Virus record (IMG/VR): IMGVR_UViG_3300044846_001015
Location: 1-22,047 of that record
From: a virus
Direction: 5' to 3' (one strand)
Length of the DNA: 22,047 nucleotides
Each line of letters starts with the position of its first letter. The first letter of the stretch is position 1. The position numbers and the translations under genes are program-made. Shown here piece by piece: positions 329-20,300 of this stretch. Below the pieces are notes generated by a model. That model did not search any database and was not told the origin of the DNA. It saw only the letters and a list, made by a program, of their open reading frames with translations.

Positions 329-1204
329 ATGACTAAAGGAATTTTATTATCTGCTTTTGGCAGAAAAGGATATGCTTACGCAGCATTTAATATGTGTGCA
401 TCTATCAAGAACTTTAACAAAGATGTTAAGGTTGCTTTTGCTTTTGATAGAGAAATCTTTAAGTATCTATCTCCAGAGAAAATAGCTTTGTTTGATGACC
501 TAATAGAGATACCAAAAGAACAATTCTACACACATAGAATAGACCCAGCACTCTATAAGACTGCTATTTACAACTATCTTCCTTACGATGAAACACTTAT
601 TTTGGATGTTGATGGATGTGCGTTACAAGACCTACAACCATTAATTGATAAGTTAAGTCAAATTGATAAACCAATCCAAACGGAAGTTATGGGTATTGGT
701 GGTAAGTTTGATGAGATTAGATACTCTATTTGGGCTTCTAATGCTGTTATATGGGAAAGGTTCAACCTTAATGATGATTCTATATTACCAGCAATTCAAT
801 CTTCTTTTATGTACATTAAGAAGAACGAATGTAAAGAATACTTTGAGAAGCTTGAAGCCAACTACAAAGAAGGTATTTCGTTAGATAAGATTGTAACTTG
901 GGGAGGAACTATTCCAGATGAGTTGTTTTATAGTGCTACTTTTGCACAAATGGGTATAGACCCAACAATAGATATTAAACCTATATTCTTTGGTAATTAT
1001 TATGCTCCAGAAAGTTATACTGAATTAGGAGAGAAATTTTATGTACTTTCGCTTTACGGAAATGGAATAGGTAGGAAAGAAACTAAACAAAGATACATAG
1101 ACTACTACGAAAGAATTATGAGAGTATATTGCTCTAACCAAGGCATATCTCACGATTATAAGGTAAGTTATATAATGACAGATAAACACTTGAATTTCAA
1201 ATGA
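329..1204 (+). CDS. GT-A-fold glycosyltransferase-like protein
   Basis: This 291-residue protein probably transfers a sugar from a nucleotide-sugar donor. It begins with a hydrophobic strand (GILLSAFG) and carries a DxD-type motif, D93-V-D95, inside LILDVDG. That is the usual metal and nucleotide-sugar binding arrangement of GT-A enzymes such as GT8-like proteins. No signal peptide or membrane segment is visible, so it should act in the cytoplasm. It starts 11 bases after the U-tract of the preceding terminator and its stop overlaps the next start (ATGA at 1201-1204), so it heads an operon with two more glycosyltransferases and a methyltransferase. The acceptor is unknown. Virion protein or cell-surface glycan modification are both possible. 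Confidence 0.7.
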   Translation: MTKGILLSAFGRKGYAYAAFNMCASIKNFNKDVKVAFAFDREIFKYLSPEKIALFDDLIEIPKEQFYTHRIDPALYKTAIYNYLPYDETLILDVDGCALQDLQPLIDKLSQIDKPIQTEVMGIGGKFDEIRYSIWASNAVIWERFNLNDDSILPAIQSSFMYIKKNECKEYFEKLEANYKEGISLDKIVTWGGTIPDELFYSATFAQMGIDPTIDIKPIFFGNYYAPESYTELGEKFYVLSLYGNGIGRKETKQRYIDYYERIMRVYCSNQGISHDYKVSYIMTDKHLNFK

Positions 1205-1890
1205 TTGCATTAACATCCATTTCTCCAAAACACATTAACGAAGATATACAAGGAACAGCCATAAACTCTTGGGTTAAATTAGGGTTTAAAGTATATTCTT
1301 TCAATAACTCTAATGAGATTGCTATTCTTAAAGACAACTACAAGAATGTAACTTTTATAGAAAGCATAAGTGGGGAAGCTAAATTTGGTAGGCCATTAAT
1401 CTATTTAGATACTTTATTAGACTTTGCTAAGACCCAAGATGACACAGACATTTGTCTTATTAACTCTGATATTATCCTAAACGATAGTTGGACATTACTT
1501 CCAGAGATTATTGAAAATTTACCACATAGAGCAACTATTGTCAAAAGGAGAGATTTTATCAATGACATAAACGACAACAAAGTATTTGAAAGTGGTATAG
1601 ATGTATTCTTTATTCATAAAAATTACATAGATTTGATACCAAGGTCAGAGTTTGCTATTGGAGCTTGTTGGTGGGATTATCATGTTCCTTATTCGCTTAT
1701 GAACGCTAATATCCCAGTTAAATATCTTAGAGAGCCATTTGCTTTTCATAGACTTCACAATACTCAATACTCTATGCAAGAGTGGGAAGCTTTAGGACAC
1801 GAATTTAAACATTTGCACAATGTAAGAGCAAGAAGCATAATGCAACTAAACAATATAATTTACGCTCACATAATGGATAATGTTAAATAA
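1201..1890 (+). CDS. Putative glycosyltransferase (GT-A-like)
   Basis: A 229-residue protein with the alternating hydrophobic strand and helix pattern of GT-A enzymes. An early strand MIALTSISP is followed by a conserved-looking NSWVKLGFKVYSFNN segment, as in family 2-like transferases. The expected DxD position reads N88-S-D90 in LINSDIIL, so the first acidic residue is replaced by Asn, which is tolerated in some GT-A families. There is a Trp-rich segment near residue 160 (GACWWDYHVPYS). It overlaps the upstream gene by four bases (ATGA). It is followed by a short gap with the direct repeat AATGTTAAAT. The donor and acceptor cannot be told from sequence. Confidence 0.6.
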   Translation: MIALTSISPKHINEDIQGTAINSWVKLGFKVYSFNNSNEIAILKDNYKNVTFIESISGEAKFGRPLIYLDTLLDFAKTQDDTDICLINSDIILNDSWTLLPEIIENLPHRATIVKRRDFINDINDNKVFESGIDVFFIHKNYIDLIPRSEFAIGACWWDYHVPYSLMNANIPVKYLREPFAFHRLHNTQYSMQEWEALGHEFKHLHNVRARSIMQLNNIIYAHIMDNVK

Positions 1891-1911
1891 TAATATTAAA
1901 TAATGTTAAAT
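1879..1911 (+). repeat. Short direct repeat between two glycosyltransferase genes
   Basis: The 10-mer AATGTTAAAT occurs at 1879-1888 and again at 1902-1911, separated by 13 AT-rich bases. The first copy is the end of the upstream gene and the second overlaps the start codon of the downstream gene. It may be slippage or a trace of gene-module joining. No function is implied. Confidence 0.5.
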
Positions 1912-2593
1912 GGTAATATTTATAAAGACTTGGAAGAATGACCTTAAATGGCTTAAATACTGCCTTAAATCAATAGATAAGTATGGTAGTGGCTTTGAGG
2001 TGTTAATTGTTGCAGACTTGGATTGCAAATCAGAGATTGAATCTTGGGGTCTAACTAAAGAAGCTGTACATTATTGTGAGCCTAATATTGATGGTTATTT
2101 ATACCAACAATATGTTAAGTTAAGAGCTTTTGATTATACTGAATCAGAGTTCATTTTATTTTTAGATTCTGATTGTATTTTTACAGAGCCTACAAAACCA
2201 GAGGATTTCTTTACTGATGGTAAACCAAATATTTTAATGACACCTTATGAGGATATTCCAGAAGTAATGTTTTGGAAAGAAGTTACTGATAAAGCTACTG
2301 ACTTAGATGTCAAATATGAGTTTATGCGTAGGAACGGATTAGTGTACCATAGAAGCACTTTAATTAACTTATGGGATAAGTATTCACAAAAGTTCTACAA
2401 TCAGCTTAAAAGAGCTAAAAATAGGCAATTCAGCGAATTTAATGTTATTGGTGCTTTTGCTTTTGAATTTGAGCAAGAAAAGTATAACTTTATCAATACA
2501 AGAGATTCTATCCCACATCATCCAGTAAAACAATTTTGGAGTTGGAGTGGATTAACACAACAAGATATAGAAGAATTAAACAAACATTTATGA
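1910..2593 (+). CDS. Putative glycosyltransferase, DxD motif
   Basis: A 227-residue protein starting with MVIFIKTWKNDLKWLKYC, a typical first strand and helix of small nucleotide-sugar transferases. The motif D86-S-D88 sits in FILFLDSDCIF after a predicted strand, the classic metal-binding DxD. Further on, residues near 205 read PHHPVKQFWSWSG, an aromatic and His-rich patch often seen near active sites of such enzymes. DUF6492-like proteins have a similar look, but this is by eye only. The stop overlaps the methyltransferase start (ATGA at 2590-2593). It is probably co-translated with the two preceding transferases and acts on the same unknown glycan. Confidence 0.65.
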   Translation: MVIFIKTWKNDLKWLKYCLKSIDKYGSGFEVLIVADLDCKSEIESWGLTKEAVHYCEPNIDGYLYQQYVKLRAFDYTESEFILFLDSDCIFTEPTKPEDFFTDGKPNILMTPYEDIPEVMFWKEVTDKATDLDVKYEFMRRNGLVYHRSTLINLWDKYSQKFYNQLKRAKNRQFSEFNVIGAFAFEFEQEKYNFINTRDSIPHHPVKQFWSWSGLTQQDIEELNKHL

Positions 2594-3255
2594 AAATCCT
2601 AAAAAACGATTTGGCCGTTTTAGAAAACGACACACACATTAGTAAATGGGTAGAAGAACATAACTCTTTAATCCACAACCAATCATTAGCTCAAGAGCTT
2701 AAATACTACCTTCGTAAAGATATGAGCGTAGTGGAGATAGGTGCTTTTATAGGGGATAATACAGCTTTCTTAAAAGACTTAGGTAAATGGGTTATTTCTT
2801 TTGAACCTAATCCAGAAGCATTTGAATGCCTTGAGCATAACTCTCAATATTGGGATAATGTTACTTTGGCTAATTGTGCTATTGGCTCAAAGAAGGGTAA
2901 AGTAGATATTAATAGAAATGAGAATGTAGGTGCAAGTATGTGTGTTGAGGGTTCTCAAATAGATGTTATCACACTTGATTCACTCAAGTTAGATTCTTTG
3001 GATTTTATGATATTAGACTGCGAAGGATGGGAATTAGATGTATTACAAGGAGCTGTTGAAACCATAAAGCAATTTCAACCTTTAATGGTAATTGAAATAA
3101 ACCAAGGAACTTTAGAGAAATTTGGGAAAAAACCACAAGATATATTCGATTTTCTTAATAAATTAGGTTATTTTTGTAGGAACTTATATGCAAATCTCCC
3201 AATGGAAGGAGAACAGTATGATATTTTATGTTTTAAATCTAATTACAATGGCTAA
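2590..3255 (+). CDS. FkbM-type SAM-dependent methyltransferase
   Basis: I place the start at the ATG at 2590, which overlaps the upstream stop (ATGA), rather than at an earlier in-frame ATG at 2536 deep inside the neighbour. The 221-residue protein has a SAM-binding motif I at residues 47-58 (VVEIGAFIGDNT), then ISFEPNPEAF (motif II, acidic ribose-binding position), and later LDFMILDCEGWELDVLQGA with the conserved acidic and Gly-Trp residues of the FkbM family. FkbM enzymes methylate hydroxyls of sugars and other small groups. Directly after three glycosyltransferases, the likely role is O-methylation of the same glycan. The last 8 bases overlap the next small gene. Confidence 0.8.
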   Translation: MKILKNDLAVLENDTHISKWVEEHNSLIHNQSLAQELKYYLRKDMSVVEIGAFIGDNTAFLKDLGKWVISFEPNPEAFECLEHNSQYWDNVTLANCAIGSKKGKVDINRNENVGASMCVEGSQIDVITLDSLKLDSLDFMILDCEGWELDVLQGAVETIKQFQPLMVIEINQGTLEKFGKKPQDIFDFLNKLGYFCRNLYANLPMEGEQYDILCFKSNYNG

Positions 3256-3388: not shown

Positions 3389-5293
3389 ATGTACAGTATA
3401 GAAGAAATTGCAGCTAAGATTAAGCGTGTTTCTGCTCTTGCTATTGAAGCAGAGAGAGAACGCAAACAAAGAGCTTACAATAGTGATGTAGCTTTGTTAT
3501 TCGGTACTGAATACATAGATGTACTACCAGACTATTTTGAAGGCTATGATGAATCAGTTGAAGATTATGAAGCTATTAGAGTTCATAGTGAGAAAAACTG
3601 TTTCCCAGCAAGATTGTTTGCAAAGAGAGCACCTAATCAAACTGAACAAGCAGCTCGTTGGATGCAAGATAACTATAAAAATGTTACGCAACCAGTATTC
3701 GTTGATTTCTTAAATACTGTACTTCGTGCTACACACGACCAAAACTGGAGTATTCACTTTGGTTTAGATGCAGCACAATATGAACAAGCTGGATTAACAT
3801 TCCAAAAATATTTAGATAATGACATTAGAGATTATGGTTCATTAGAATCATTCTTTAAACAAGTAATGTTTGCATTGCAATTAAAAGATGCAATGGGTGT
3901 TATTGCTATTAGACCACATTCTCTTGAGATGCTTGAAGATGAAGAAGGTGGATATGTTTTAGATTCAAATAAACTTATTGAACCACAACCATATTATTTT
4001 ACATCAAGACAAGTAGTCGGATATGAAACAAGCTATTGTATTGTAGAATCTGAAGAAAAATCTATTGTAGAATATTACGGAAGTAAAAGAGAAAAAGGTA
4101 GAATTTATGAGTTTTATGATGACCAAAATATTTGGTTTTGTAAACAAGTAGGTAAATATGTAGATAATCAATTTGAGATTACTTTATTTTACAATCACGG
4201 TTGGGGTAAAGTCCCAGCTACTCGTTTAAGAGGTATTCCAGTAGTTTACGAAGGTAAAGTATTATGGCAATCTCCTTTCTTATTTGCTACTGACTTATTA
4301 GATTTAGTTGCACAAAATAGTGCTTACAAACAAGCAAGTATTGCTAAATGCGTATTCCCAGCTACAATTATGTTGGGAGATATTTGTGAGTTTGAAGAAA
4401 ATGGAAATAGATGTAATGATGGCCTTATAGGATTCAATGATGAAGATGGTAACTATCATTCTCACACTTGTTCTAATTGCCATGGAGTTGGTTTAGTTTC
4501 TCGTTTAGGGCCATTGGAAACAATGTTAATTAAACCAGAAGTTAGAGGACAAAACGAAAGTGAATTGCGTTCTTCTCAAGAGCCATTAAAATATGTTTCT
4601 CCAGAGGTTCATACTTTACAATTCTTAGAGGAATCTATTGATAAGACCGAGATGAAAGCTCGTAAGATTCTTCACTTGCAGACTTCAAGCTCTGATATTA
4701 AGGGTTATGAGAATATGACTGCTACTGGAACTGTATTAGACAATAAAGCTGCATTTGCATTTATTATGCCTATTGCACATACTGCATTTGAAACATTTGA
4801 GTTTATCATTAATGCTATTGGATGGATGCGTTACAAGGATGATTATGTAAAGCCTTCTATTGCATATCCACAAAGCTTTGATATTGGAACTGAAAGAGAT
4901 ATTTTAATGACTATCTCGGAAATGGTTAAAAACCAAGTTCCAGCAGTATTGATTCACGCAGAGATATTCAGATACTTAAAATCAGTATTCTACACAGATG
5001 CTAAAACAACTGCTGTTTATGAATTAATGATTAATACAGATAGATTATTAGTTTTAAGTGGCGATGAGGTTATGTTAAGACAAGCTAAAGGTCTTGCAGA
5101 AAGATGGGAAGTTATCTTACACGATTCATTTATGTCATTCGTAGACCAAATGATTGCTTTAGAGCCAGACTTCTTAACTCAACCATTCGAGGTTCAAAAG
5201 ACTAAGATAATTGATATGGCTAAATTAAAAGCTACTCAAATAACTGAAAGTAATAATGTATCAGTACAAGGTATTGATTCAATGATTCAATAA
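3389..5293 (+). CDS. Phage portal protein
   Basis: At 634 residues this is of typical or slightly large portal size, with a mixed alpha/beta composition and no membrane segment or Walker motif. It lies directly before a MuF-like minor head gene (TAATG overlap at 5291-5295), followed by scaffold and capsid genes, which is the standard head order. Portals form the dodecameric ring at one capsid vertex through which DNA enters and leaves. Unusual for a portal is a four-cysteine cluster, C333-x8-C342-x18-C361-x2-C364, ending in CSNCHGVGL. This resembles the CxxCxGxG zinc-binding repeat of DnaJ. The portal assignment rests mainly on gene order and size. Confidence 0.75.
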   Translation: MYSIEEIAAKIKRVSALAIEAERERKQRAYNSDVALLFGTEYIDVLPDYFEGYDESVEDYEAIRVHSEKNCFPARLFAKRAPNQTEQAARWMQDNYKNVTQPVFVDFLNTVLRATHDQNWSIHFGLDAAQYEQAGLTFQKYLDNDIRDYGSLESFFKQVMFALQLKDAMGVIAIRPHSLEMLEDEEGGYVLDSNKLIEPQPYYFTSRQVVGYETSYCIVESEEKSIVEYYGSKREKGRIYEFYDDQNIWFCKQVGKYVDNQFEITLFYNHGWGKVPATRLRGIPVVYEGKVLWQSPFLFATDLLDLVAQNSAYKQASIAKCVFPATIMLGDICEFEENGNRCNDGLIGFNDEDGNYHSHTCSNCHGVGLVSRLGPLETMLIKPEVRGQNESELRSSQEPLKYVSPEVHTLQFLEESIDKTEMKARKILHLQTSSSDIKGYENMTATGTVLDNKAAFAFIMPIAHTAFETFEFIINAIGWMRYKDDYVKPSIAYPQSFDIGTERDILMTISEMVKNQVPAVLIHAEIFRYLKSVFYTDAKTTAVYELMINTDRLLVLSGDEVMLRQAKGLAERWEVILHDSFMSFVDQMIALEPDFLTQPFEVQKTKIIDMAKLKATQITESNNVSVQGIDSMIQ

Positions 5294-6216
5294 TGACTTT
5301 AGAAGAAATTATAAAGCTTAAATTATCAAGATTAGATGATATTCCAACTCTTTATACAAATGGTATAAAAGATACACAAAAGGAAATTATGTTAGAGATG
5401 TTGGATTCTTTAGAAAACCTAAAGAGGGATGAGAACGGAAACATAAAAAGAACTCAAGCTAACCTTGCAATTATTGAAGATATTAACGATGACCTTCAAA
5501 AGATATTTAAAGCTTCAGAGTACCTTTCACTTACTTCAGTATTCTTAAAAGAGTTTGATGAACAAGCAAAAATAACTGATGACTTTTTTAAGAAAGCATT
5601 TGGAGATTTTGAGGTATCTTCCTTTAACTTAAAAGCATTAGAAGTAAGCAGACAACAAGCATTTGAATTAATGGCTGGTCAAGCTTATTTAACTTCTAAT
5701 CTATACAATCCAGTAAAGAATATACTAACAGATGCAGTAGTTGCTGGAGATGCCTACTCAAAGACAGTTAAAGCTATTAGCCAAGCCATACAAGGCGGTA
5801 CAATCAACGGAAACAAGTTAGAGGGTAGATTGTATCGTTATGCTAAACAAATGGCTTTTGACACATTCGCAGTAGCTGACAGAGGATATACTAATAACAT
5901 AGCTCAAGATTTAGATGTAGAATGGTATGCTTATAGAGGTGGCCTTGTTGAAGATTCAAGACAATTTTGCATTACTCGTAACGGTAATTACTACCATAAA
6001 AAAGAAGTGGAAGCTTGGGGAGATTTAAAACAATGGGATGGTAAAATACCAGCAACTGATAGCAAGACAATATTTGTTTACGCTGGAGGTTATAGATGTA
6101 ACCATTCTATACTTCCTAATGCTATATCTGCTACACCAGTAGATGTCATCCAAAGAAACATTGAAAATGGTAACTTTACACCTACAAAAGCAGAGATAGA
6201 AATATTAGGATTATAA
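5293..6216 (+). CDS. MuF / SPP1 gp7-like minor head protein
   Basis: The 307-residue protein has a helical N-terminal two thirds and a C-terminal MuF-like signature: E220-D221-S-R-Q-F-C226 with IT-R-NG following, an aromatic/acidic segment (EVEAWGDLKQWDG), and GYRCNHSI with C269 and H271. This Cys plus Cys-x-His pattern is typical of Mu gpF / SPP1 gp7 head morphogenesis proteins. They are packaged in small copy number, associate with the portal and help genome entry or head assembly. It starts at the base where the portal gene stops. Its 3' end collides tail-to-tail with a minus-strand gene (stops at 6211-6216). Confidence 0.8.
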   Translation: MTLEEIIKLKLSRLDDIPTLYTNGIKDTQKEIMLEMLDSLENLKRDENGNIKRTQANLAIIEDINDDLQKIFKASEYLSLTSVFLKEFDEQAKITDDFFKKAFGDFEVSSFNLKALEVSRQQAFELMAGQAYLTSNLYNPVKNILTDAVVAGDAYSKTVKAISQAIQGGTINGNKLEGRLYRYAKQMAFDTFAVADRGYTNNIAQDLDVEWYAYRGGLVEDSRQFCITRNGNYYHKKEVEAWGDLKQWDGKIPATDSKTIFVYAGGYRCNHSILPNAISATPVDVIQRNIENGNFTPTKAEIEILGL

Positions 6217-6402
6217 AGATTTAAGTTCTTTAATTTCTCTGATTTCTTCTTTATGTACTCCATCAATCATCACGAAGATAACTGTACTTTGAATAATAAA
6301 GTTTACTTTGTTTAAATGCACATCGTGCTTCTTAGCGTAGAACTCTTTTAACTTATGAAGTGTTTGATACAATACTTCAATTTCTCTTTTCCTTACAATC
6401 AT
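6211..6402 (-). CDS. Small protein, partner of the ribbon-helix-helix regulator
   Basis: A 63-residue protein with a Lys- and Glu-rich N-terminal helix (REIEVLYQTLHKLKEFYAKK) followed by two predicted strands (VNFIIQSTVIFVMIDGV) and a charged C-terminal helix. Its ATG shares a base with the stop codon of the upstream minus-strand gene (TAATG at 6400-6404), so the pair is translationally coupled. Its stop overlaps the end of the plus-strand MuF-like gene. I do not recognise the family. Coupling to an RHH protein would fit a toxin-antitoxin pair, a co-repressor or an anti-repressor, but nothing in the sequence decides this. Confidence 0.6.
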   Translation of the reverse strand: MIVRKREIEVLYQTLHKLKEFYAKKHDVHLNKVNFIIQSTVIFVMIDGVHKEEIREIKELKSL

Positions 6403-6563
6403 TATTTTCCTAATAAAAGTTTATTAACTGCCGTTTCAATACTAATCTTAACTCCACTTTCAGTTAGAGCCTTAGCTTGTCTTGCGTGAATGATAGCCAT
6501 AGCTTCTCCACAAAATTTAATTGTAGCTGTTATACAGTCTTTGTTTTTGCGTTCTCGTGCCAT
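6402..6563 (-). CDS. Ribbon-helix-helix (CopG/Arc-like) DNA-binding protein
   Basis: A 53-residue protein with a basic N-terminus (MARERKNKD). It then has an alternating strand (CITATIKF), a helix (AMAIIHARQAKALTES), a Gly turn (SGVKIS) and a second helix (IETAVNKLLLG). This strand-helix-turn-helix order and size match dimeric RHH transcription factors such as Arc, CopG and ParD-type antitoxins, in which the strand inserts into the DNA major groove. It lies on the minus strand inside an otherwise plus-strand head operon. Immediately upstream are 10-bp repeats and an ATATAG/CTATAT palindrome that make good operator candidates. Autoregulation and control of the divergent promoter are inferred. 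Confidence 0.65.
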   Translation of the reverse strand: MARERKNKDCITATIKFCGEAMAIIHARQAKALTESGVKISIETAVNKLLLGK

Positions 6564-6580
6564 ATAGTAACATATAGTAA
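6561..6580. promoter_or_regulatory. Tandem 10-bp operator-like repeats
   Basis: The decamer CATATAGTAA occurs twice with no spacer, at 6561-6570 and 6571-6580, overlapping the start codon of the minus-strand RHH gene. The 10-bp spacing puts both copies on the same DNA face, as expected for adjacent RHH dimers. The hexamer ATATAG recurs in the palindrome at 6621-6634. Confidence 0.5.
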
Positions 6581-6587
6581 TAAACTA

Positions 6588-6619
6588 CAATATTAGGTAT
6601 AAATATTCATATTTCCAAA
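6588..6619 (-). promoter_or_regulatory. Candidate Bacteroidota promoter for the RHH cassette
   Basis: Read on the minus strand, TTTG (6619-6616) is followed after 20 bases by TAATATTG (6595-6588), one mismatch from TAnnTTTG. Transcription would start near 6582 and read straight into the tandem repeats and the RHH gene. An alternative -7 box, TATGTTTG, lies at 6623-6616. Confidence 0.4.
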
Positions 6620-6620
6620 C

Positions 6621-6637
6621 ATATAGTCCTATATTTG
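6621..6637 (+). promoter_or_regulatory. -7 promoter box overlapped by a palindromic operator candidate
   Basis: TATATTTG at 6630-6637 matches the Bacteroidota -7 box TAnnTTTG and would start transcription just before the ATG at 6656. The perfect inverted repeat ATATAG-TC-CTATAT (6621-6634) overlaps it, so a bound protein would block the promoter. The half-site is the same hexamer found in the tandem repeats at 6561-6580. No good -33 TTTG is visible. Confidence 0.5.
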
Positions 6638-6655
6638 AAGAAAAAACAAATATTT

Positions 6656-6976
6656 ATGTCAGTAAGATGTCTTAATGATAAGGGTGTAGTTGTATTTATT
6701 CCTACACACCTTGCACAAATGCCAGATTATATGAGGAGAAATAAACTCACTATTGATGAGATAAAACCTCAAGAACCACTAAAACCTTTATCGGAAGTCA
6801 ATTTAGAGGTAGAAAAACCACAAGAAGTAGTAGATGATTCTCCAATCGTTGAAGTATTAGCAGAAGATGTTGAACTCACTAAAGAGGAATACTGGGCTAT
6901 TTTAGATGAAAAAGGAATTGAATACAAGAAAACTTACGGAATTAATAAACTTAAAGAACTAACAAATGCCAATTAA
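6656..6976 (+). CDS. Small head-module protein with HeH/LEM-like C-terminus
   Basis: I use the ATG at 6656 (106 residues) and not an upstream TTG at 6635, because the TTG lies inside the predicted -7 promoter box. The N-terminus is a compact beta-like segment (MSVRCLNDKGVVVFIP), and the middle is a Pro/Glu/Val-rich linker. The C-terminus LTKEEYWAILDEKGIEYKKT followed by YGINKLKEL fits the short helix-extended-helix (HeH/LEM) motif common in small phage head-region proteins. It overlaps the scaffold gene by 11 bases. The role is unknown. A head-tail joining or nucleic acid-contacting role would be guesswork. Confidence 0.6.
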   Translation: MSVRCLNDKGVVVFIPTHLAQMPDYMRRNKLTIDEIKPQEPLKPLSEVNLEVEKPQEVVDDSPIVEVLAEDVELTKEEYWAILDEKGIEYKKTYGINKLKELTNAN

Positions 6977-7826
6977 AGAAGAAGAATTAAAGCAATTCGT
7001 GTCTGAATATTTAGACATCAATGTAGATTCAATCGAATCATTAGAGAGTTTAAAAGAAACATTTGGTTCATCATTCGCAAGAAAAGATGTTTACAAGTCA
7101 GAACTATCAAAAGACCCAAATTTCATTAACCCATTAATCGGTAAAAGATTAGGAACTATTGAAACAAAAATTAAACAAGCAGCTAAGGATAAACTATCTT
7201 TAGAGTTTGATGCTGGGGATTTTAAGGATAAGTCTGTTGAAGATTTACTTGATTTAGTAACTGACAAAGCAAAAGGTAAGTTTGAAAAAGAGCTTGGCGA
7301 TATGCGTTCAAAGGTAACTGGCGATTCAAGTGAAATTGAAACTAAATACCAAGAGCAATTAAAGTTACTTCGTGAAGAAGCTACTAATTGGAAAACTCAA
7401 GCTAATAATGCTAACCAAGAGTTTGAATCATTCAAGACTGGTTTAGTAGTTAAAGAGAAACAACAGAAGCTAAACTCTAATTTAGAGAAAGTATTTAACT
7501 CTGTTAAGTATGCTCCAGAAGCAGATGAACTTCGTAAAGAAGGGTTCAAGACAAAAATTATGTCAGATGTAAAGTTTGATTTTGATGAAAATGATAATTT
7601 TAGTATCTTTGACAAAGAAGGTAAGACTTTATTCCATCCTAACAAGGCTGGAGTTCAATACTCTCCCGAAGATTACTTGAGAGATAAAGCTATTGAATAT
7701 AAGATTTACCAAATGAATCCAGATGGAGGAAGACAAACTAATCAGAGAGTGGTAACACAAGCTGAAAGTTCTGCTCCAGAAGGGCCAAGAGGAAGAATAA
7801 TACACCCATCGGCAGCTCAATATTAA
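6966..7826 (+). CDS. Probable capsid scaffold protein
   Basis: The 286-residue protein is highly charged and mainly helical, with a long coiled-coil region around residues 110-185 (Glu, Lys, Gln and Leu rich, no Pro). It lies directly before the major capsid gene, the usual place for a scaffold that shapes the procapsid and is then removed. The C-terminal tail is disordered and basic (GPRGRIIHPS). There is no Ser protease motif, so the scaffold seems not to be fused to a protease. It starts inside the end of the HeH/LEM-like gene. The assignment rests on position, coiled-coil content and size. Confidence 0.65.
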   Translation: MPIKEEELKQFVSEYLDINVDSIESLESLKETFGSSFARKDVYKSELSKDPNFINPLIGKRLGTIETKIKQAAKDKLSLEFDAGDFKDKSVEDLLDLVTDKAKGKFEKELGDMRSKVTGDSSEIETKYQEQLKLLREEATNWKTQANNANQEFESFKTGLVVKEKQQKLNSNLEKVFNSVKYAPEADELRKEGFKTKIMSDVKFDFDENDNFSIFDKEGKTLFHPNKAGVQYSPEDYLRDKAIEYKIYQMNPDGGRQTNQRVVTQAESSAPEGPRGRIIHPSAAQY

Positions 7827-7958
7827 TTGGGTTGCCCTTGTGGCAAAATATACACATCGCAAGTGCGTGGATGCCTTATCCAATAATTAAGGAATAAGTG
7901 CCGAAAACTTACAAGGCAATAGGAAATATGTAAGTGCATTTATTTTATATTAATTATT
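7827..7958 (+). other. Structured 132-base leader between scaffold and capsid genes
   Basis: This is the only long gap in the plus-strand head genes. It has several possible stems: TTGCC/GGCAA (7832-7836 with 7842-7846), GGAT/ATCC (7869-7872 with 7878-7881), CTTATCC with GGAATAAG (7875-7881 with 7891-7898, one bulge) and CTTAC/GTAAG (7908-7912 with 7930-7934). ACAAGGCAA at 7911-7919 can also pair with the first hairpin (TTGCC-C-TTGT), giving two mutually exclusive folds. No ORF or TAnnTTTG box is visible. It could tune capsid translation, mark an RNA processing site or be a self-contained RNA. Confidence 0.4.
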
Positions 7959-9008
7959 ATGTCGTATGTATTAGGACAATTAACAGCATGTCCAACCATC
8001 CAAAGAGAACTGACAGATTATTTTATGACTTGTCCAGTTAATGAGTTTATGCCATTCTTTGAATTCTTAAACTCTCCAATCAACAATATGGGGTTAGCTC
8101 AAGAAGTAGCTCCAGGCGGTGGTAAAATCCGCACAGTAAGATTAACTTACACTCCAAGACAATTAGAATCAGCAGTTACAGCCAATGTAGCTAACCCTAA
8201 ATGTAATGTATCTAACTTCATCGGAGATAGATATACTGATTACACTTTAGATACTGATGAGAACTTTGGTGTAGGTTTTTCAATGACAGCAGTAGAATTA
8301 GAAGCTGCTTGTATTGCTAACGAAACATATTTTGTTCGTAGATTAGCAGATTTAATTGATGCTTTAGACCGTAAATTAGCTACTGATACAACTTCAGATT
8401 TAGCTTCTATCGTAGGTAAATGGGCTTCAAATGTAACTATGAACGCATCTAATGAGTTTGTAGTAAATACATTACAACCATCTTCAGCATTCATTGACCC
8501 ACAAACAACTGCAAAGATTGACTTTGCAATGCAAAAAACTGGTTATTGCAATGAATCTATGATTTTTGCTGGTTCACAACTTGCAGAATATTATAGAGCA
8601 ACTTCATCAGCTGGATGTTGCACACAACAAGGTATTGATGTTGCTGCTATCTTTAACCAATATGGTAAAGCAGTAGCGTATGATAGAAGAATTGAATCAA
8701 CTTTTGGAACAGATAAAGCTGTTGCAATTCAAGCTGGTTCATTAGCTTTATTAACATACACTCGTACACCTTGGAAAGAAGGTATGCCACTTCCTTATCG
8801 TGATGCTGGTAACTATATTTCAACAGTAATTCGCTCTCCAAGAACTGGAATCCCTATGGATTTAACAGTTTCTGACACTTGCGGTTCTGTTTCGGTTTCA
8901 CTTGTAGCTACTACAAAACTTGTTGGATTACCATTGGACATTTATGCTCAAGGCGATTTCATGAGTGGTGTAAACTACATGGCGAAAATCAAAGTTACAA
9001 ATGTTTAA
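7959..9008 (+). CDS. Major capsid protein
   Basis: This 349-residue protein is of the usual size for an HK97-fold major capsid protein, with no signal or membrane segment. It follows a scaffold-like gene and a structured leader and is followed by a very strong terminator, as expected for a highly expressed gene. It has an N-terminal helical part (QRELTDYFMTCPVNEFMPFFEF), a Gly-rich loop (APGGGKIRTVRLTYTPR) and a long beta-rich C-terminal half. Several Cys (CPT, TCP, CCT) could be structural. I do not see a protease cleavage signal. The family was not confirmed by search; the call comes from context and general composition. Confidence 0.75.
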   Translation: MSYVLGQLTACPTIQRELTDYFMTCPVNEFMPFFEFLNSPINNMGLAQEVAPGGGKIRTVRLTYTPRQLESAVTANVANPKCNVSNFIGDRYTDYTLDTDENFGVGFSMTAVELEAACIANETYFVRRLADLIDALDRKLATDTTSDLASIVGKWASNVTMNASNEFVVNTLQPSSAFIDPQTTAKIDFAMQKTGYCNESMIFAGSQLAEYYRATSSAGCCTQQGIDVAAIFNQYGKAVAYDRRIESTFGTDKAVAIQAGSLALLTYTRTPWKEGMPLPYRDAGNYISTVIRSPRTGIPMDLTVSDTCGSVSVSLVATTKLVGLPLDIYAQGDFMSGVNYMAKIKVTNV

Positions 9009-9020
9009 TTTTCATTAATT

Positions 9021-9055
9021 GGTGGGGGGCTAAAACCCCCTACCTTTATTTTTTT
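9021..9055 (+). terminator. Strong intrinsic terminator after the capsid gene
   Basis: A 9-bp stem (9021-9029 with 9036-9044, one G-T pair, five G-C pairs next to the loop) and the loop CTAAAA are followed by a T-rich tract at 9045-9055. The next gene starts at 9059 with no clear promoter, so it may be a partial terminator that sets a high capsid-to-connector ratio. Confidence 0.85.
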
Positions 9056-9058
9056 AAT

Positions 9059-10072
9059 ATGGCTTGTTTCGATAATCTTATAGGATTAAAAGGCTCTTGT
9101 GCAGAGAGTGCGTTACCATCTGATGGTTTATATTTAAACACACTTGGTATTAGCAGAGAATTTATAGAGGATATAATCAATGAAGATTATGCTGATGTAG
9201 ATTCTTTTGTGTTAGATAAGATTTCTTTGGCTCAAGACCAAATCAAAAGTGATATTTACTCTAAGTTTACAGCTAAGTTTAATGTAACATCAATCTTAGA
9301 ATCTGTAAGGTTAGGACAATTCAACGAAACACCAACTATTGTACCAGCCATTGCTGGAAGTTCTAAAGGCATACAAATGCGTATATGGAACGATACTACC
9401 TTTGCTAAATGTTATGTATCTACTATTCAAACTTACTGGAATTTTACTGGTAATGTTGATTTAAAAGTATATGACCTTACACAAGGTAAATTATTAGACA
9501 CTATCGTAGTTGCATCTGTTGCAAATCAGATTGTACAAACTACTATTAATAAAGTATATAAAAGCTCAAGTCAAGACTTAAACATAGTCTTTATTTATGA
9601 TTCTACTTTTCAATCTTATGCTTCAAGCTTCTTAAACGCTGGTTGTGTAACTTGTAATAGAGGTGGAGCTTTTATGCAAAACAAATATGTTTACTCTACT
9701 GGAGTAACATTTGAAAACGCAGACCCTAAAACACAAACTTATTTGAATGGCGAAAGTGATACTGGTGGTATCTCTGTTGTTTATTCTTTACAATGCGACC
9801 ACGAAGCTTGGATTTGCAGTAATGCTAACTTCTTTGTGAGTGCAATGTTATACAAAACTGCTTATTTGATTACTCAATATGCAGATTTAATGAGCAATTC
9901 ATTCTCAAGTGCTAATATTGATAGAGATAGATTAAGGAGCAAGATGGAATATTATGAATTTGAGTACAATAATAGATTAGAAGCTGGAGTAAAAAACTTA
10001 AAGATACCTTCTTATGATGTTTGTTTTTCTTGCAATAGATTAAGAATGAACAAAACAATCTTGCCAAGTTGA
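9059..10072 (+). CDS. Virion-module protein, possibly a head-tail connector or minor capsid component
   Basis: I start the 337-residue protein at the ATG at 9059, just after the capsid terminator; a longer frame reaching back to 8879 lies in the capsid gene. The N-terminus MACFDNLIGLKGSC suggests a cytoplasmic virion protein. Residues 25-80 are helical and acidic, residues 90-250 are beta-rich with aromatic residues, and the C-terminus is helical again (IDRDRLRSKMEYYEFEYNNRL) and ends with two Cys in CFSCNRL. Many Cys residues are spread through it, which is unusual. It lies between the capsid and the neck genes, so an adaptor or minor head role is likely. I do not recognise the family. Confidence 0.6.
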   Translation: MACFDNLIGLKGSCAESALPSDGLYLNTLGISREFIEDIINEDYADVDSFVLDKISLAQDQIKSDIYSKFTAKFNVTSILESVRLGQFNETPTIVPAIAGSSKGIQMRIWNDTTFAKCYVSTIQTYWNFTGNVDLKVYDLTQGKLLDTIVVASVANQIVQTTINKVYKSSSQDLNIVFIYDSTFQSYASSFLNAGCVTCNRGGAFMQNKYVYSTGVTFENADPKTQTYLNGESDTGGISVVYSLQCDHEAWICSNANFFVSAMLYKTAYLITQYADLMSNSFSSANIDRDRLRSKMEYYEFEYNNRLEAGVKNLKIPSYDVCFSCNRLRMNKTILPS

Positions 10073-10182
10073 TTTATAGCGAGATAGATGGCATATATGA
10101 AACATTCTTCATTTCAGACTTTTGGATTGAAGGAGATGAGTTTATCCAACAATTAGTAACGATTAAAATAATATTAAACTGA
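10069..10182 (+). CDS. Possible small ORF with TTG start, unknown product
   Basis: Between the connector-like gene and the next gene, one frame is open from 10039 to the TGA at 10180-10182, whose last base is also the A of the next ATG (TGATG). This tight junction and the clean amphipathic sequence (YETFFISDFWIEGDEF, then IQQLVTIKIILN) suggest real coding. There is no ATG in the frame. The best start is TTG at 10069, giving 37 residues and overlapping the upstream stop. A -1 frameshift extension of the upstream protein is an alternative, but no canonical slippery heptamer is present. Confidence 0.35.
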   Translation: MIYSEIDGIYETFFISDFWIEGDEFIQQLVTIKIILN

Positions 10183-10802
10183 TGACAGTAGCAGACTACC
10201 AAACCAAACTAAGGAATCAAATCAAGGCTTTAAAGTCTGATAAGATTATGCAGTTGGCTGTCTATTCTGTTAATCAAAAAAGGATTGAAAGAATATTTGA
10301 GAAGGGGCAAAACACTTATGGTTTTAAGATTGGGGATTACAATAGTACAACCCCAGTTTACATTAGACCAGAAGATGCTCCTAAAGCAGTTAAGTTAGGT
10401 GGTAAGCCAGAAGCTATTAAAGGAAAGTCTTATAAAAATAAGACTGGAGTTACTTTTAAGAGTACAGAAAAGAATCCAGAAACAGCTTATTACCCAAGTT
10501 ATAAAGCCTTTAGAAGGGCTATGGGTAGAGAAACTGGCTTTGTTAATATAAGGCTTAATAACCGATTACAAGGGGATTTGGCTAACGCTACTATAAGTAA
10601 AGCTACAACTAACTTAGCAAACAATAAACCTATTAAGGTTGATAACCATAGATACATTGTTACTCTTAAAAACCAAGAGAACATTGATAAGGTTCAGTCT
10701 TTAGAAAAGAGATATGGTAAGATAATTGACTTAACTGGGCGAGAGGTTAAATTTTACCACGAGATATTAGAAAAAGAATTTAGATTAGCTTTAGCAAAAT
10801 GA
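10182..10802 (+). CDS. Putative neck / tail-completion protein
   Basis: The 206-residue protein is basic and starts with a helix (TKLRNQIKALKSDKIMQLAV). A central Lys/Gly/Thr-rich part looks flexible, and the C-terminal IDLTGREVKFYHEILEKEFRLAL looks like the closing helix of small virion morphogenesis proteins of the HK97 gp10 kind. Those act as adaptors between the head connector and the tail. It overlaps the next gene by four bases (ATGA at 10799-10802) and follows the connector-like gene, so position supports a neck role. Sequence similarity is only by eye. Confidence 0.5.
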   Translation: MTVADYQTKLRNQIKALKSDKIMQLAVYSVNQKRIERIFEKGQNTYGFKIGDYNSTTPVYIRPEDAPKAVKLGGKPEAIKGKSYKNKTGVTFKSTEKNPETAYYPSYKAFRRAMGRETGFVNIRLNNRLQGDLANATISKATTNLANNKPIKVDNHRYIVTLKNQENIDKVQSLEKRYGKIIDLTGREVKFYHEILEKEFRLALAK

Positions 10803-11428
10803 TACAAACGATAGTAAGATATATGCAAAATAAGCTGGATGCTGAAACTATCTTCCAAAGAAACTACGGATTAACCGAGTTAATAGAAAGAGATGGTAGG
10901 GTATTCCCTTTATTTTACGAAACTGATGGTAAATATAAGCTTGATTTTCAACCTAATAAATGGTTTGGAGTTTCTTATTTTAGAAAGAATGGTAATGTAA
11001 GCTTTGCTGATGGTAATTTCCCTTCTTTAAAGCCTTGTGAAGTACCAGTTACTGTTACAGTCCCATTGAAGTTTATTTGTTCGATTAAGAAGGCTAAATT
11101 GAAGTGTGATGACAATTATGCTGGGGATGACTTGGCTTTTTATATAGCAAAATTATTTGAGGATATTAATGGCTTGAGGACAGAATTAAAGGCAAAAAGA
11201 GCTACCTTTGTAGTAGGAGAATATAGTACAGATTCACAAAAAGTTCTTGATTCAGAATTTAATGGTATGGATGCTATATTTAAACCAGAATATGTTTACT
11301 TATCAATGGACATAGAGATAAATGTTCAAACAACTAAAGAATGTATGTTTGATTATTGTGGTGGTGTAATCATTGATGAGGATGCAGATAAAGTAGTAGA
11401 TTCAAGAAATAACAAATTAAGAGCATAG
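10799..11428 (+). CDS. Putative neck or tail-terminator protein
   Basis: A 209-residue soluble protein with an N-terminal helix (IQTIVRYMQNKLDAETIF). It is followed by alternating beta segments (VPVTVTVPLKFICSI) and an acidic C-terminus with YLSMDIEINVQTTKECMFDYC. Size, the beta-rich middle and its place between a neck-like gene and the fibre fit a tail-terminator or neck component. No family is recognised with certainty. It is separated from the fibre gene by only two bases, so both are probably on one transcript. Confidence 0.45.
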   Translation: MIQTIVRYMQNKLDAETIFQRNYGLTELIERDGRVFPLFYETDGKYKLDFQPNKWFGVSYFRKNGNVSFADGNFPSLKPCEVPVTVTVPLKFICSIKKAKLKCDDNYAGDDLAFYIAKLFEDINGLRTELKAKRATFVVGEYSTDSQKVLDSEFNGMDAIFKPEYVYLSMDIEINVQTTKECMFDYCGGVIIDEDADKVVDSRNNKLRA

Positions 11429-11430
11429 AA

Positions 11431-14400
11431 ATGGCAGATGTAAGAATAACACAATATCCATTAAAATCAATTATATCAGATAATGATATATTTTTGATTG
11501 CAGATTCTAATGATATAGATGTAAATGGATTTCCTAAATATAAAAAAGTAAGAGCAAAGGATTTACCTTCTATTGTAAACACAGCAGAAAATATTACTTA
11601 TGCTAACTTAATGGCTTCTATTGCAGCCAATGACCTTATTATAGGTACATTTTATAGAATTACTGATTCTACTTCTGGAGTTTCTCCATTATTAGTACAA
11701 GCAGTAGGTGTAAATGCTATTAGCTATCAAGCTTTTGATGGTGCAAATCCACTTAATACTATTAACTATAATGTTGCAACCGATACAATTAGATGGAATA
11801 AAAACGAAACAAACCCTCCACAAGATTATTTAAGTGGTTCTGGTATTGTTAAATCTACTGCTGGTACTATTTCTTATTTAACTGATAACTCTACTAATTG
11901 GAATACGGCTTTTAACGATTCAATCGTAAGTGCTGCCGTAACTGGTAGTGCTACAAAGACTTTAACTCTTAATCAACAAGATGGTGGTACGGTTACTGCT
12001 TCTTGGAGTGATATAGATACTGGATTAACTTCGGTTGGTCTTACTATGCCTTCTGCTTTTACTGTTTCTAATAGTCCTTTGACTGCTAATGGAACACTTG
12101 CAGTAACTGGGGCTGGTGTTGCTTCTCAATATGTTAGAGGAGATGGTACTTTAGCTGCTTTCCCTACTTCAACTGGTGGTGGTTCTTCAGTAAGTTATTA
12201 TTTTAATGGAGGTACTAATCAAGGAACAATAGGTGGAAACACTTATTATGAAATGAGCAAGACTGCTGTTATAGGAGTTGGTGCTGATTTTAATATTAGT
12301 TCAAATGGCTATGTTGCTCAATTTGTAACAGATGCTAACGACCCAGCTTTATTATCTATACCAGCTGGTAATTGGAACTTTGAAATGTGGTTTTCTGCAA
12401 GTTCTAATGGTGGTAGTCCAAGTTTTTATTTAGAATTATATAAATATGATGGTGCTACGCTTACTTTAATTTCAAGTGGCTCTGCTGTTCCAGAATCAAT
12501 TACTGGTGGTACTGCTATTGATTTATATACTACTGCTTTAGCTGTTCCTTTAACATCATTAACAATAACTGATAGATTAGCTGTTAGAGTATTTGTTAAT
12601 AATAGTAGTAGAACAATTACACTTCATACACAAAACGGACATTTATGTCAAGCAATAACAACATTTTCTACTGGATTAACAGCCTTAAATGGTTTAACTA
12701 ATCAAGTTCAATATTTTGCAGTAGGTACAAGTGGAACTGACTTTGCTATATCAAGTGCAACAGATACACATACTTTTAACTTACCAACGGCTTCGGCAGC
12801 CAATAGAGGTGCTTTAAGTAGTGCTGATTGGACTACATTTAGTGCTAAGATTGGAGGAACGGGAACAACTAATTACTTACCAAAGTTTACAGGAGCAAGT
12901 GCTTTAGGGAACTCTTTGATATTTGATAATGGTACGAATATTGGTATAAACACAACAACTCCAGCAACTAAATTAGATGTTGTAGGTAGTGTAGCAGATA
13001 CTGCCGTTGTAGGTGGTATTACTGTTGAACAAACTACATTATTTAGACCTTCAAATAGTGCAGGTGGATTAAGAACAGGTTTTAATACAACAGGTGGGGA
13101 TGTTTATGTATGGTCTTCAACAAGTGGTGCAAGTTTAAACTTTGGAACAAGAGTAGCACCAAATAATAATGTTGGAATGACTTTGCTTTCAAGTGGTAAT
13201 TTTGGTATAGGAACTACTGCACCTGCAAGTAAATTAGATGTACAAGTTTCAACTGCTGGAACTTCAATTATAGGATATTTTAATAATAATGACTTTACTG
13301 CTGCAAATAAATCAGTATTAAGAGTAAGACAACAAACAGGAGTTTCAACTGGATTTTCGGGTTACTTTGGTATGGATGGGAATGTTTTATTCTTATCAAA
13401 TGATACTACTGCAACAAGGCATTTAGCAATTTCTACAACAGGTGCAGCAACATTTTCTTCTTCGGTAACGGCAGGTTTATCTTCTGCTACTGGAACACAA
13501 TTAACTTTAAATGCTTTATATTCAAATGGTATAACTTTCTTAAATACAAATGTTGGTGTTGATAATAGAAATTTTAGAATTATAACAGACCAAGGTGTTT
13601 ATGGAACTTTTAACATTCAAAAAAGTACAACACAAGGTGGTTCTACTTATGCTAATATATTATCTTTTGACCAAAATAGTGTAGCAACATTTAGTGCAGA
13701 TGCAACAATCAACGGAGTAAAAGTAGGTAGAGGCGGAGGAAATATTGCAACAAATACTGCGGTAGGAGCAAGTGCTTTAAACGCAAACACAACTGGTGCA
13801 AATAATATTGCAATAGGTTTATCTTCTTTAACAAATAATACTACAGGTGGGACAAATACCGCAATAGGTAATTTTTCTTTGGCTACTAATACAACTGGTA
13901 TTAATAATGCTGCTTTTGGATTTCAATCATTAGTATTTAATGTTACTGGTTCAGCAAATACCGCAATAGGTCGTGATGCTTTACAAAATAACACCGCATC
14001 TAATAATACGGCAGTTGGTTTTGAAGCTGCTTTAACTAACACAAGTGGTACAGATATAACCGCAATAGGATATAGAGCATTAAAATTCTCTACTGGAGTT
14101 TCTAATACTGCCGTTGGTAGTAACGCATTAACTGCAAACACTACGGGAGCAAATAATACTGCTCTTGGTAGTGGTACTTTAATCGCAAATACAACAGGTG
14201 CAACTAATACTGCGGTAGGTGTAAATGCTTTAACTGTAAACACAACGGGTTCACAAAACACATCAGTTGGTGTAAGTTCTTTATCAGCAAATAATACTGG
14301 CTCTCAAAATACTGCTATTGGTAGGTCAGCTTTATTTACAAATACAACTGGTTTAAATAATACTGGTCTTGGTTATCAAGCATTATATTTTAATTCTATT

Positions 14401-15219
14401 GGTTCGAATAATACCGCTTTAGGTGCTGCTGCTTTGCTTAACAACACCGCAAATAATAATACCGCAGTCGGTTTTGAAGCAGCTACTAATAATACAACAG
14501 GAGCAGCTACAACTGCTATCGGTTATCAAGCCCTAAAAATAAATTCAACTGGGGCAAATAACACCGCAGTAGGAAGTTCTGCATTAGGTTTAAATACAAC
14601 AGGTCAACAAAATACTTCGGTTGGAAGTGCTTGTTTAGTAAATAACACAACAGGAAATGATAACACCGCTATTGGTGTATCAGCTTTACAGTCAGTTACT
14701 ACTGCAAGTAATAATACTGCAGTTGGAAGACTTGCTTTAGGAGCAAATACCGCAGCCAATAACACCGCAGTTGGTTTTGAATCTTCTTATTTGAATACAA
14801 CAGGAACAGGAATAGTTTCAGTAGGTTACCAAGCATTAAGAGCAAATACAGGTATTCAAAATACTGGTATTGGTTTTCAATCTTTATTAGTTAATACAAC
14901 GGGTACATCAAACACCTCATTAGGGTTTCAAAGTTTAGTTGCTAATACTACTGGTGCAGTTAATACTGCTATTGGTAATGGTGCTTTAAGTGCTAATACA
15001 ACAGGTGCTTCAAATAGTGCATTAGGTGTAGGAACACAAAGTGGTAATTTTAACGCAAGTGTTATTTTAGGTAGAGATGCAACTGCAACTGCTTCAAATC
15101 AATTTGTTGTAGGTTCTGCATCTTATCCAGCAGGAGCAGTAGCAACAGAAGTAAACGCTTCATCAAAAGTTTGGAATGTAGTAATTAACGGAGTAGCACA
15201 AAAAATATTATTAGCATAA
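11431..15219 (+). CDS. Tail fibre / adhesin-like virion protein with 17-residue repeats
   Basis: The 1262-residue protein starts with a compact adaptor-like segment (MADVRITQYPLKSI). It continues with beta-rich domains, including two GIGTTxPxxKLDV-type motifs near residues 505-517 and 590-604 that are typical of phage fibres. Residues 775-1194 are about 25 tandem 17-residue repeats of the type NTAxGxxALxxNTTGxN. They resemble the head repeats of trimeric YadA-type adhesins and probably form a trimeric beta-roll shaft. The C-terminus ends in WNVVINGVAQKILLA, and no S74 autoprotease chaperone is seen. The gene stop overlaps the next start (TAATG). The likely role is receptor binding or a shaft. 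Confidence 0.85.
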   Translation: MADVRITQYPLKSIISDNDIFLIADSNDIDVNGFPKYKKVRAKDLPSIVNTAENITYANLMASIAANDLIIGTFYRITDSTSGVSPLLVQAVGVNAISYQAFDGANPLNTINYNVATDTIRWNKNETNPPQDYLSGSGIVKSTAGTISYLTDNSTNWNTAFNDSIVSAAVTGSATKTLTLNQQDGGTVTASWSDIDTGLTSVGLTMPSAFTVSNSPLTANGTLAVTGAGVASQYVRGDGTLAAFPTSTGGGSSVSYYFNGGTNQGTIGGNTYYEMSKTAVIGVGADFNISSNGYVAQFVTDANDPALLSIPAGNWNFEMWFSASSNGGSPSFYLELYKYDGATLTLISSGSAVPESITGGTAIDLYTTALAVPLTSLTITDRLAVRVFVNNSSRTITLHTQNGHLCQAITTFSTGLTALNGLTNQVQYFAVGTSGTDFAISSATDTHTFNLPTASAANRGALSSADWTTFSAKIGGTGTTNYLPKFTGASALGNSLIFDNGTNIGINTTTPATKLDVVGSVADTAVVGGITVEQTTLFRPSNSAGGLRTGFNTTGGDVYVWSSTSGASLNFGTRVAPNNNVGMTLLSSGNFGIGTTAPASKLDVQVSTAGTSIIGYFNNNDFTAANKSVLRVRQQTGVSTGFSGYFGMDGNVLFLSNDTTATRHLAISTTGAATFSSSVTAGLSSATGTQLTLNALYSNGITFLNTNVGVDNRNFRIITDQGVYGTFNIQKSTTQGGSTYANILSFDQNSVATFSADATINGVKVGRGGGNIATNTAVGASALNANTTGANNIAIGLSSLTNNTTGGTNTAIGNFSLATNTTGINNAAFGFQSLVFNVTGSANTAIGRDALQNNTASNNTAVGFEAALTNTSGTDITAIGYRALKFSTGVSNTAVGSNALTANTTGANNTALGSGTLIANTTGATNTAVGVNALTVNTTGSQNTSVGVSSLSANNTGSQNTAIGRSALFTNTTGLNNTGLGYQALYFNSIGSNNTALGAAALLNNTANNNTAVGFEAATNNTTGAATTAIGYQALKINSTGANNTAVGSSALGLNTTGQQNTSVGSACLVNNTTGNDNTAIGVSALQSVTTASNNTAVGRLALGANTAANNTAVGFESSYLNTTGTGIVSVGYQALRANTGIQNTGIGFQSLLVNTTGTSNTSLGFQSLVANTTGAVNTAIGNGALSANTTGASNSALGVGTQSGNFNASVILGRDATATASNQFVVGSASYPAGAVATEVNASSKVWNVVINGVAQKILLA
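13753..15012 (+). repeat. 25 tandem coding repeats of 51 (or 48) bp in the fibre gene
   Basis: Units of 17 residues (five of them 16) follow one another without gaps from N775 to residue 1194, then a degenerate 26th unit. A triplet of units recurs three times: a 16-residue unit ending in A-(S/N/A)-N, a unit starting NTAVGFE, and a unit with a VGY or IGY core. These triplets sit at units 5-7, 14-16 and 20-22, suggesting past segmental duplication. Codons vary between copies, so the array is not recent. Confidence 0.85.
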
Positions 15220-15714: not shown

Positions 15715-15873
15715 ATGAATAAAGAGCAAATATATGGCATATTAGGACAAGGTCTTGATATAGCTACACAAAAGGGAGTATTTAATTTAAGTGATGCTAA
15801 AGTTATCGCTGATGCTTTATTAGAACTTAAAAAAGTTTTAGACATTCAAGAACCAGAAGTAGTTCAAGAATAA
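15715..15873 (+). CDS. Small helical protein, paralogue of the previous gene
   Basis: A 52-residue protein with LGQGLDIATQKGVFNLSDAK followed by VIADALLELKKV, aligning without gaps to the core of the preceding small protein. The shared positions are the helix before the KG, the FNL and the next helix. It lies 17 bases after its paralogue and is the last gene before the terminator at 15892-15930. The function is unknown. Similar pairs of small helical proteins sometimes follow fibre genes in Bacteroidota phages, but I cannot confirm this. Confidence 0.65.
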   Translation: MNKEQIYGILGQGLDIATQKGVFNLSDAKVIADALLELKKVLDIQEPEVVQE

Positions 15874-15891
15874 GTAGTATAATACTATATT

Positions 15892-15930
15892 AAAGAGTGT
15901 CTTGGCTAAAAGTTGAGGCACTTTTTTTTT
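15892..15930 (+). terminator. Intrinsic terminator ending the fibre operon
   Basis: The arms 15892-15907 and 15911-15926 pair along their length if G-T pairs are allowed, with AGTG facing CACT, and the 3' arm runs into ten T. It separates the structural genes from the lysis operon. Confidence 0.75.
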
Positions 15931-15937
15931 ATTTTTG
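15930..15937 (+). promoter_or_regulatory. -7 box of the lysis operon
   Basis: TATTTTTG at 15930-15937 matches TAnnTTTG and lies 17 bases before the ATG at 15955, directly after the terminator. Upstream TTG candidates at 15913 and 15902 have non-ideal spacing (14 and 25 bases). Confidence 0.45.
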
Positions 15938-15954: not shown

Positions 15955-16200
15955 ATGAAAAAAATTACAGATTGGTTAAATGGTCTTTTAAAAGATGAGA
16001 AAGGTACTCCTTCTTCTAAGAGGTTTGTAGGGATTTTTTGTGCTTTAACCTTGTGTATTACTATGTACTCTAATTCTTTCACAGAAGCCCATTTTGTGCC
16101 TTCTAAGGAGCTTGTAGATGCAGTTGCACTATTAGCCTTCGGATGCTTAGGATTGGCTTCAGTAGATAAGATTTGGGGTAAAAAGGAGGATAAAGAATAA
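15955..16200 (+). CDS. Holin-like two-TM membrane protein
   Basis: I use the ATG at 15955 (81 residues), as an earlier GTG- or ATG-like frame opening at 15913 would start inside the terminator. A polar N-terminus (KKITDWLNGLLKDEKGTPSSKR) precedes two hydrophobic segments, FVGIFCALTLCITMYSNSF and LVDAVALLAFGCLGLASV, and then a charged tail (KIWGKKEDKE). Two membrane segments, small size, a charged C-terminus and a place at the head of an operon ending in an endolysin are typical of holins, which open the inner membrane at lysis time. The stop overlaps the next ATG (TAATG at 16198-16202). Confidence 0.65.
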   Translation: MKKITDWLNGLLKDEKGTPSSKRFVGIFCALTLCITMYSNSFTEAHFVPSKELVDAVALLAFGCLGLASVDKIWGKKEDKE

Positions 16201-19458: not shown

Positions 19459-19466
19459 TACCTTTG
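19437..19466 (+). promoter_or_regulatory. Canonical Bacteroidota promoter
   Basis: TTG (19437-19439), a 19-base spacer and TACCTTTG (19459-19466) fit the consensus TTTG/TTG-N19-TAnnTTTG well. Transcription would start near 19472, at or just before the ATG at 19474, giving a nearly leaderless message, or serve the lipoprotein gene at 19556. Confidence 0.6.
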
Positions 19467-20269: not shown

Positions 20270-20300
20270 TTTGTAATTATTAAAAACATTATTACCTTTG
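20270..20300 (+). promoter_or_regulatory. Strong Bacteroidota promoter for a small RNA
   Basis: TTTG (20270-20273), exactly 19 bases, then TACCTTTG (20293-20300) followed by CA gives the best consensus match in the window. No ORF starts after it within about 240 bases. Transcription should begin near 20305. Confidence 0.7.

Follow-up and report, generated by a model that had tools for sequence, protein, structure and literature searches.

Arc is a protein of 53 residues whose half-sites have the geometry TAGA-N5-TCTA. In P22-like phages, the Arc/Mnt 'ant moron' sits inside the late operon and is thought to affect the level of the tailspike by altering how often late polymerases pass through (PMC2629481). 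This insert is the nearest precedent for the locus described here, which by analogy may be regarded as a smaller version of it placed among head genes, and its existence tempers the view, expressed in an earlier note on this DNA, that a regulator seated within such a module is unusual. Two further systems invite comparison, namely the autorepressed operons of RelB/RelE (PMC2812701) and the Omega repressor of pSM19035, a member of the MetJ/Arc family (PMC4803016).

The locus lies in a virus record of 22,047 bases, analysed over its whole length and referred to here as the window, which has 33% G+C and carries almost every gene on the plus strand. Its head genes run from the portal (3389-5293; PHROG portal match, E 4e-21) through a MuF-like gene (5293-6216, plus strand), a minus-strand cassette, a gene for a protein with an HeH/LEM-like C-terminus (6656-6976, plus strand) and a scaffold-like gene (6966-7826, plus strand; 26% identity, E 1e-22, to its equivalent in the more distant phage L071) to the capsid gene (7959-9008, plus strand), assigned to the major capsid protein by synteny and with 32% identity (E 3e-46) to that of L071. 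The MuF-like gene, on the distal side of the portal, takes its name from position, as the MuF label of the earlier note finds no confirmation in Pfam or PHROGs. The cassette itself is as that note described it, a unit of two minus-strand genes between the MuF-like and HeH/LEM-like genes, encoding proteins of 53 residues (6402-6563) and 63 residues (6211-6402) that are translationally coupled through a TAATG stop/start overlap (6400-6404). Among the window's main genes no other unit runs on the minus strand, and the cassette is convergent with the MuF-like gene; the stop codons of the latter and of the 63-residue gene abut in TTATAA, so that the cassette is tightly packed. The first head gene beyond the putative promoter had been read from a TTG at 6635, a start corrected here to the ATG at 6656, where the protein begins MSVRCLN or MPVRCLN in all clades. 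Upstream of the head genes, between the tail and portal genes, the window also holds glycosyltransferase-like and FkbM methyltransferase genes (329-3255). The host is probably a member of the Bacteroidota, to judge from the TAnnTTTG boxes discussed below and from weak portal similarity to the Polaribacter phages P12002L/S, the only link to annotated phage records; no relative of the cassette was found in those records or in bacterial genomes.

The ATG of the 53-residue gene, the putative regulator, and the ATG at 6656 are 92 bp apart, and this interval together with the regulator start codon contains two tandem copies of CATATAGTAA, a third copy of the form CATATAGT, the palindrome ATATAGTCCTATAT and the box TATATTTG. 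The tandem copies, located at 6561-6570 and 6571-6580, are identical in 12 of 12 contigs of the window's own clade (clade A), and the regulator's own start codon sits within the first of them. This pair is the window's only perfect adjacent 10-bp tandem, of a kind that 0.06% of intergenic dinucleotide shuffles yield, while the third copy is 8 bp long (6620-6627) and an 8-mer in three copies arises in 1.5% of shuffles. A first candidate operator, O1, with the pattern TAGT-N5-ACTA (TAGTAATAAACTA), occupies 6575-6587, and a second, O2, is the palindrome ATATAG-TC-CTATAT (6621-6634), which overlaps the -7 box TATATTTG (6630-6637, plus strand) of a putative head promoter; repeats, palindrome and overlap were all recovered as first reported. 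On the minus strand, TAATATTG (6588-6595), with one mismatch, is a candidate for the -7 box of the promoter driving the regulator and is replaced by an exact TAAATTTG in clades B and C, and TATGTTTG (6616-6623) could supply the -33 TTTG of the same promoter, at 20 bp spacing, or form a second -7 box. The TAnnTTTG box of flavobacterial sigma-A promoters is found at -12 to -5 (PMC9723704), and this placement predicts transcription starts near 6642 on the plus strand and, provided that TAATATTG serves as the box, near 6583 on the minus strand. Taken singly, several of these elements say little. The O2 palindrome alone was rejected as evidence, given that one with 6-bp arms arises in 36% of shuffles, as was the count of TAnnTTTG boxes, which shows no enrichment in the window (38 against an expected 37); the TAGT-N5-ACTA motif by itself is expected 0.8 times per window, and a second copy is unremarkable unless its full sequence is considered. 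With a palindrome so common in shuffles and a box so far from enriched, it is conservation between phages that carries the observation.

Beyond the window, scans of IMG/VR added 11 contigs to clade A and yielded three diverged contigs, two of clade B (L013 and L014) and one of clade C (L053); both cassette genes occupy the same place, in the same order, in each of the 15 contigs that cover the junction, across three diverged clades. Relative to the window, the regulator is 58-67% identical in clades B and C and the partner 60-65%. Values of pN/pS of 0.00-0.39 for the 53-residue gene and 0.05-0.37 for the 63-residue gene show that both are real and under purifying selection. Conservation of the control region far exceeds that of neutral sites: among the clade-A pairs compared, 91-92 of the 92 intergenic bases are identical, whereas in the LEM-like gene the window differs from L006 or L003 at 23-30% of fourfold sites, and L013, L014 and L053 share AATACTAAAACTTTTAGTATATTTGT, 26 consecutive identical bases, while about 50% of their fourfold sites agree (22/44, 19/38 and 21/41). 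The palindrome of clade A differs from that of clades B and C, which have ATACTAAAACTTTTAGTAT at the same place, yet it overlaps the same TATATTTG box in every clade, and clade A, L014 and L053 have in common the TAGT-N5-ACTA element at the regulator start codon, from which L013 departs by one change. Exact CATATAGTAA repeats, sought beyond clade A, are absent there; the repeat sequence appears specific to clade A and the layout common to the clades, so that the expectation of repeats kept beside the gene in homologues is borne out in clade A and gives way to another palindrome at that place in clades B and C. The clade-C cassette carries a third coupled gene of 64 residues after the partner (L053, 5056-5250, minus strand; MDLELEKETRKLIHKRMWKL...), for which no family was found. 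Contig L046, considered as a close relative without the cassette, was rejected since it looks chimeric, a junction of unrelated portal, protease and capsid genes with two pieces from this lineage, the scaffold gene's end and the capsid gene's start.

The 53-residue protein combines a basic N-terminus, the stretch CITATIK and two helix-like stretches ending in ISIETAINKLL, a pattern that by eye resembles ribbon-helix-helix (RHH) proteins. CITATIK, which would be the DNA-reading strand of such a fold, is identical in clades A and B though their palindromes differ, which speaks against the reading preferred below. The RHH label first attached to the protein is unconfirmed by matching against Pfam, PHROGs, NCBIfam and PDB sequences, none of which gave a profile match, formally an outcome that the earlier note had named as refuting but a weak test for a 53-residue orphan family in which four distinct sequences make for low search sensitivity. 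Applied straight to the phage records, the RHH profiles PF03869, PF01402 and PF12651 were likewise without a match, and comparison with Arc and CopG sequences produced no alignment. An AF2 monomer model from five sequences has helices at 2-36 and 42-51 (pLDDT 87) and is not strand-helix-helix, but is not decisive on the matter, since RHH proteins need to dimerise in order to fold (PMC4803016) and residue 8 of the L053 protein, which falls within the long helix of the model, is a proline. Structure searches with the models of both cassette proteins returned no match with E <= 0.001, and no solved structure or profile ties the 53-residue protein to any DNA-binding family; RHH chains are not among the matches listed for its model, which proves nothing. 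On balance, an RHH fold of the Arc/MetJ/CopG type is judged slightly the better guess. The AF2 model of the 63-residue protein is alpha-beta-beta-beta(-alpha) (pLDDT 81), and neither a family nor a credible fold match was found for it in Pfam, PHROGs, NCBIfam, PADLOC or the structure search. Profile comparison indicates that the two proteins are not paralogues of each other.

The preferred reading, to which about an even chance is given, is that of a lineage-specific, moron-like regulatory cassette whose 53-residue product is an autorepressor that also turns down the head promoter. This product would be a small dimeric DNA-binding protein with two targets, O1 beside the start codon of its gene and O2 towards the head genes in the intergenic region; occupancy of O1 and O2 would shut down the promoter of the regulator itself and, since O2 covers the -7 box of the opposing head promoter, would turn that one down too. 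The coupled 63-residue protein would probably act together with it, whether as co-factor, effector or cassette payload. That the 53-residue protein is the binder, that binding amounts to repression and that the head promoter is relevant in infection or to capsid timing are steps that we infer. The earlier note had proposed repression both of the regulator's own gene and of the onset of capsid expression, and the conserved unit, the operator-like repeats and the palindrome kept on the -7 box are the traces expected of a regulator that acts on both promoters. Gating of capsid onset is the weaker claim, as upstream transcription could continue through the cassette: a search at the cassette on both strands, from the upstream genes to the head genes, found no terminator, so that read-through from the upstream operon is possible and the head promoter may be redundant.

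A more distant head operon is built without the cassette. In L071/L072, whose portal is 37% identical, the LEM-like gene directly follows the portal and is itself succeeded by scaffold and capsid, the MuF-like gene is located elsewhere and no match to the cassette was found elsewhere in the record; the scaffold and capsid equivalences are clear, and that of the LEM-like gene is drawn from position and weak similarity (E 0.09). The gap after the portal is 10 bp there, leaving no room for a promoter, and the cassette and the head-facing promoter thus go together and are lineage-specific, with this single outgroup available for comparing gain here with loss there. Absence from the corresponding operon of related phages, one trait of morons, is therefore found in L071/L072, and the other, a promoter and transcription of its own, may be reflected in the opposite strand and a conserved TAnnTTTG-like box, but no terminator accompanies it. 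A moron of this kind might have its own promoter and autoregulation and yet a function unrelated to capsid timing, such as superinfection exclusion or host takeover by the 63-residue protein, with the plus-strand promoter merely restoring expression of the head genes. We regard this as possible but clearly short of probable. It draws on the missing cassette of L071/L072, on the solitary minus-strand placement among the main genes and on the description of the P22 'ant moron' effect on the tailspike as possibly accidental (PMC2629481), and it is opposed by the position of O2, which in every clade stays precisely over the head -7 box despite its changed sequence, and by a third candidate site, O3, which suggests sites outside the cassette.

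O3 (GTAGTATAATACTATA; 15872-15887), with a perfect 13-bp palindrome, lies upstream of the lysis genes, after the last tail-region gene and before a terminator hairpin (15893-15926, plus strand) and the -7 box TATTTTTG (15930-15937, plus strand), which reads TATATTTG in two relatives. Its 16 bp are those of the minus-strand O1 of L014 in clade B, a match expected about 7e-5 times per window. Two other clade-A phages carry the 13-bp palindrome unchanged, and across all three phages the whole set of palindrome, terminator hairpin and promoter-like box (15872-15937) is conserved upstream of differing lysis genes, the comparison being limited to clade A since the clade-B and clade-C contigs end before the lysis region. 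The lysis genes are swapped in close relatives, with a GH19-type lysin in the window (15955-17716) against a muramidase-like one in L088 (14514-15421). The adjoining tail region encodes a very long protein of 1262 residues (11431-15219) with many NTAIG..AL..NTTG repeats, the counterpart of which in L088, a close relative, reaches 2549 residues (6356-14005), a strong length variation. Elsewhere in the window, TACCTTTG boxes at 19459-19466 and 20293-20300 lie in short intergenic gaps with TTG/TTTG about 20 bp upstream and look like a separate, well-formed promoter class; the head and lysis -7 boxes, unlike these, have no TTG/TTTG at about that spacing and would suit weaker or regulated promoters.

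O3 is the best hint of one phage factor acting at more than one place, although it could instead belong to the terminator region and not be an operator. An unlikely but far-reaching extension of the preferred reading is a small regulon in which the 53-residue protein, as a DNA-binder of an unrecognised family, controls its own gene and the head promoter through O1 and O2 and the lysis promoter region through O3. If this were true, one tiny repressor within the head operon would time both capsid production and lysis.

We find it improbable that the pair forms a type II toxin-antitoxin system in which the 53-residue protein is antitoxin and repressor and the 63-residue protein the toxin. The gene order, the coupling and the divergent autoregulated promoter all fit such a system, and an alpha-beta-beta-beta-alpha topology, as modelled for the partner, also occurs in small toxins. 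PADLOC, NCBIfam, Pfam and PHROG gave no toxin or antitoxin match, though a new toxin would escape these libraries; the 53-residue protein is too short to carry a toxin-binding tail at its C-terminus past the putative DNA-binding region, fixation of the pair in its lineage contrasts with the usually patchy distribution of toxin-antitoxin loci, and relatives are absent from the bacterial genomes searched. The least probable reading, that a host regulator or a phage-modified polymerase binds the conserved region and the two small proteins do not bind DNA but serve, for example, in assembly or host interaction, accords with the lack of a detected DNA-binding family in either protein and with sites that are palindromic but AT-rich, but fares poorly against sites tied to the gene start in every clade, an O1/O3 similarity that follows the phage lineage and a small basic N-terminus (RERKNK) that with its following residues fits a DNA-binder.

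Transcription control in Bacteroidota phages is poorly known, and this locus provides a divergent control region that is both compact and conserved, has candidate operators beside the capsid genes and may have a second target by the lysis genes, so that the timing of a structural module by its own resident repressor becomes testable. Several of its features recur in described systems. The autorepressed RelB/RelE operons likewise consist of two coupled small genes, the first corresponding to the would-be repressor, with a set of short repeats spaced at about one helical turn (PMC2812701), but the locus lacks a sequence match to RelB or RelE, a C-terminal tail on the repressor and an identified toxin. 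The Omega repressor (PMC4803016) likewise has short repeats, direct as well as inverted, as its operator near its own promoter, whereas the heptad sequence and the protein are unrelated and omega comes from a plasmid tripartite system. With Arc the 53-residue protein shares its length, and TAGT-N5-ACTA is set here against TAGA-N5-TCTA, there being no sequence relation between the two proteins. The closest likeness is to immunity I of P22, or the 'ant moron' (arc, mnt, ant), in which small repressor genes form an independently transcribed insert within a late morphogenetic operon (PMC2629481), variable or absent in relatives and thought to influence a downstream structural gene. The present insert differs in having no antirepressor gene, in lying among head genes and not before the tailspike, and in a candidate operator that overlaps the promoter facing the structural genes. 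A regulatory insert like immI of P22 may have had an independent origin in a different head operon.
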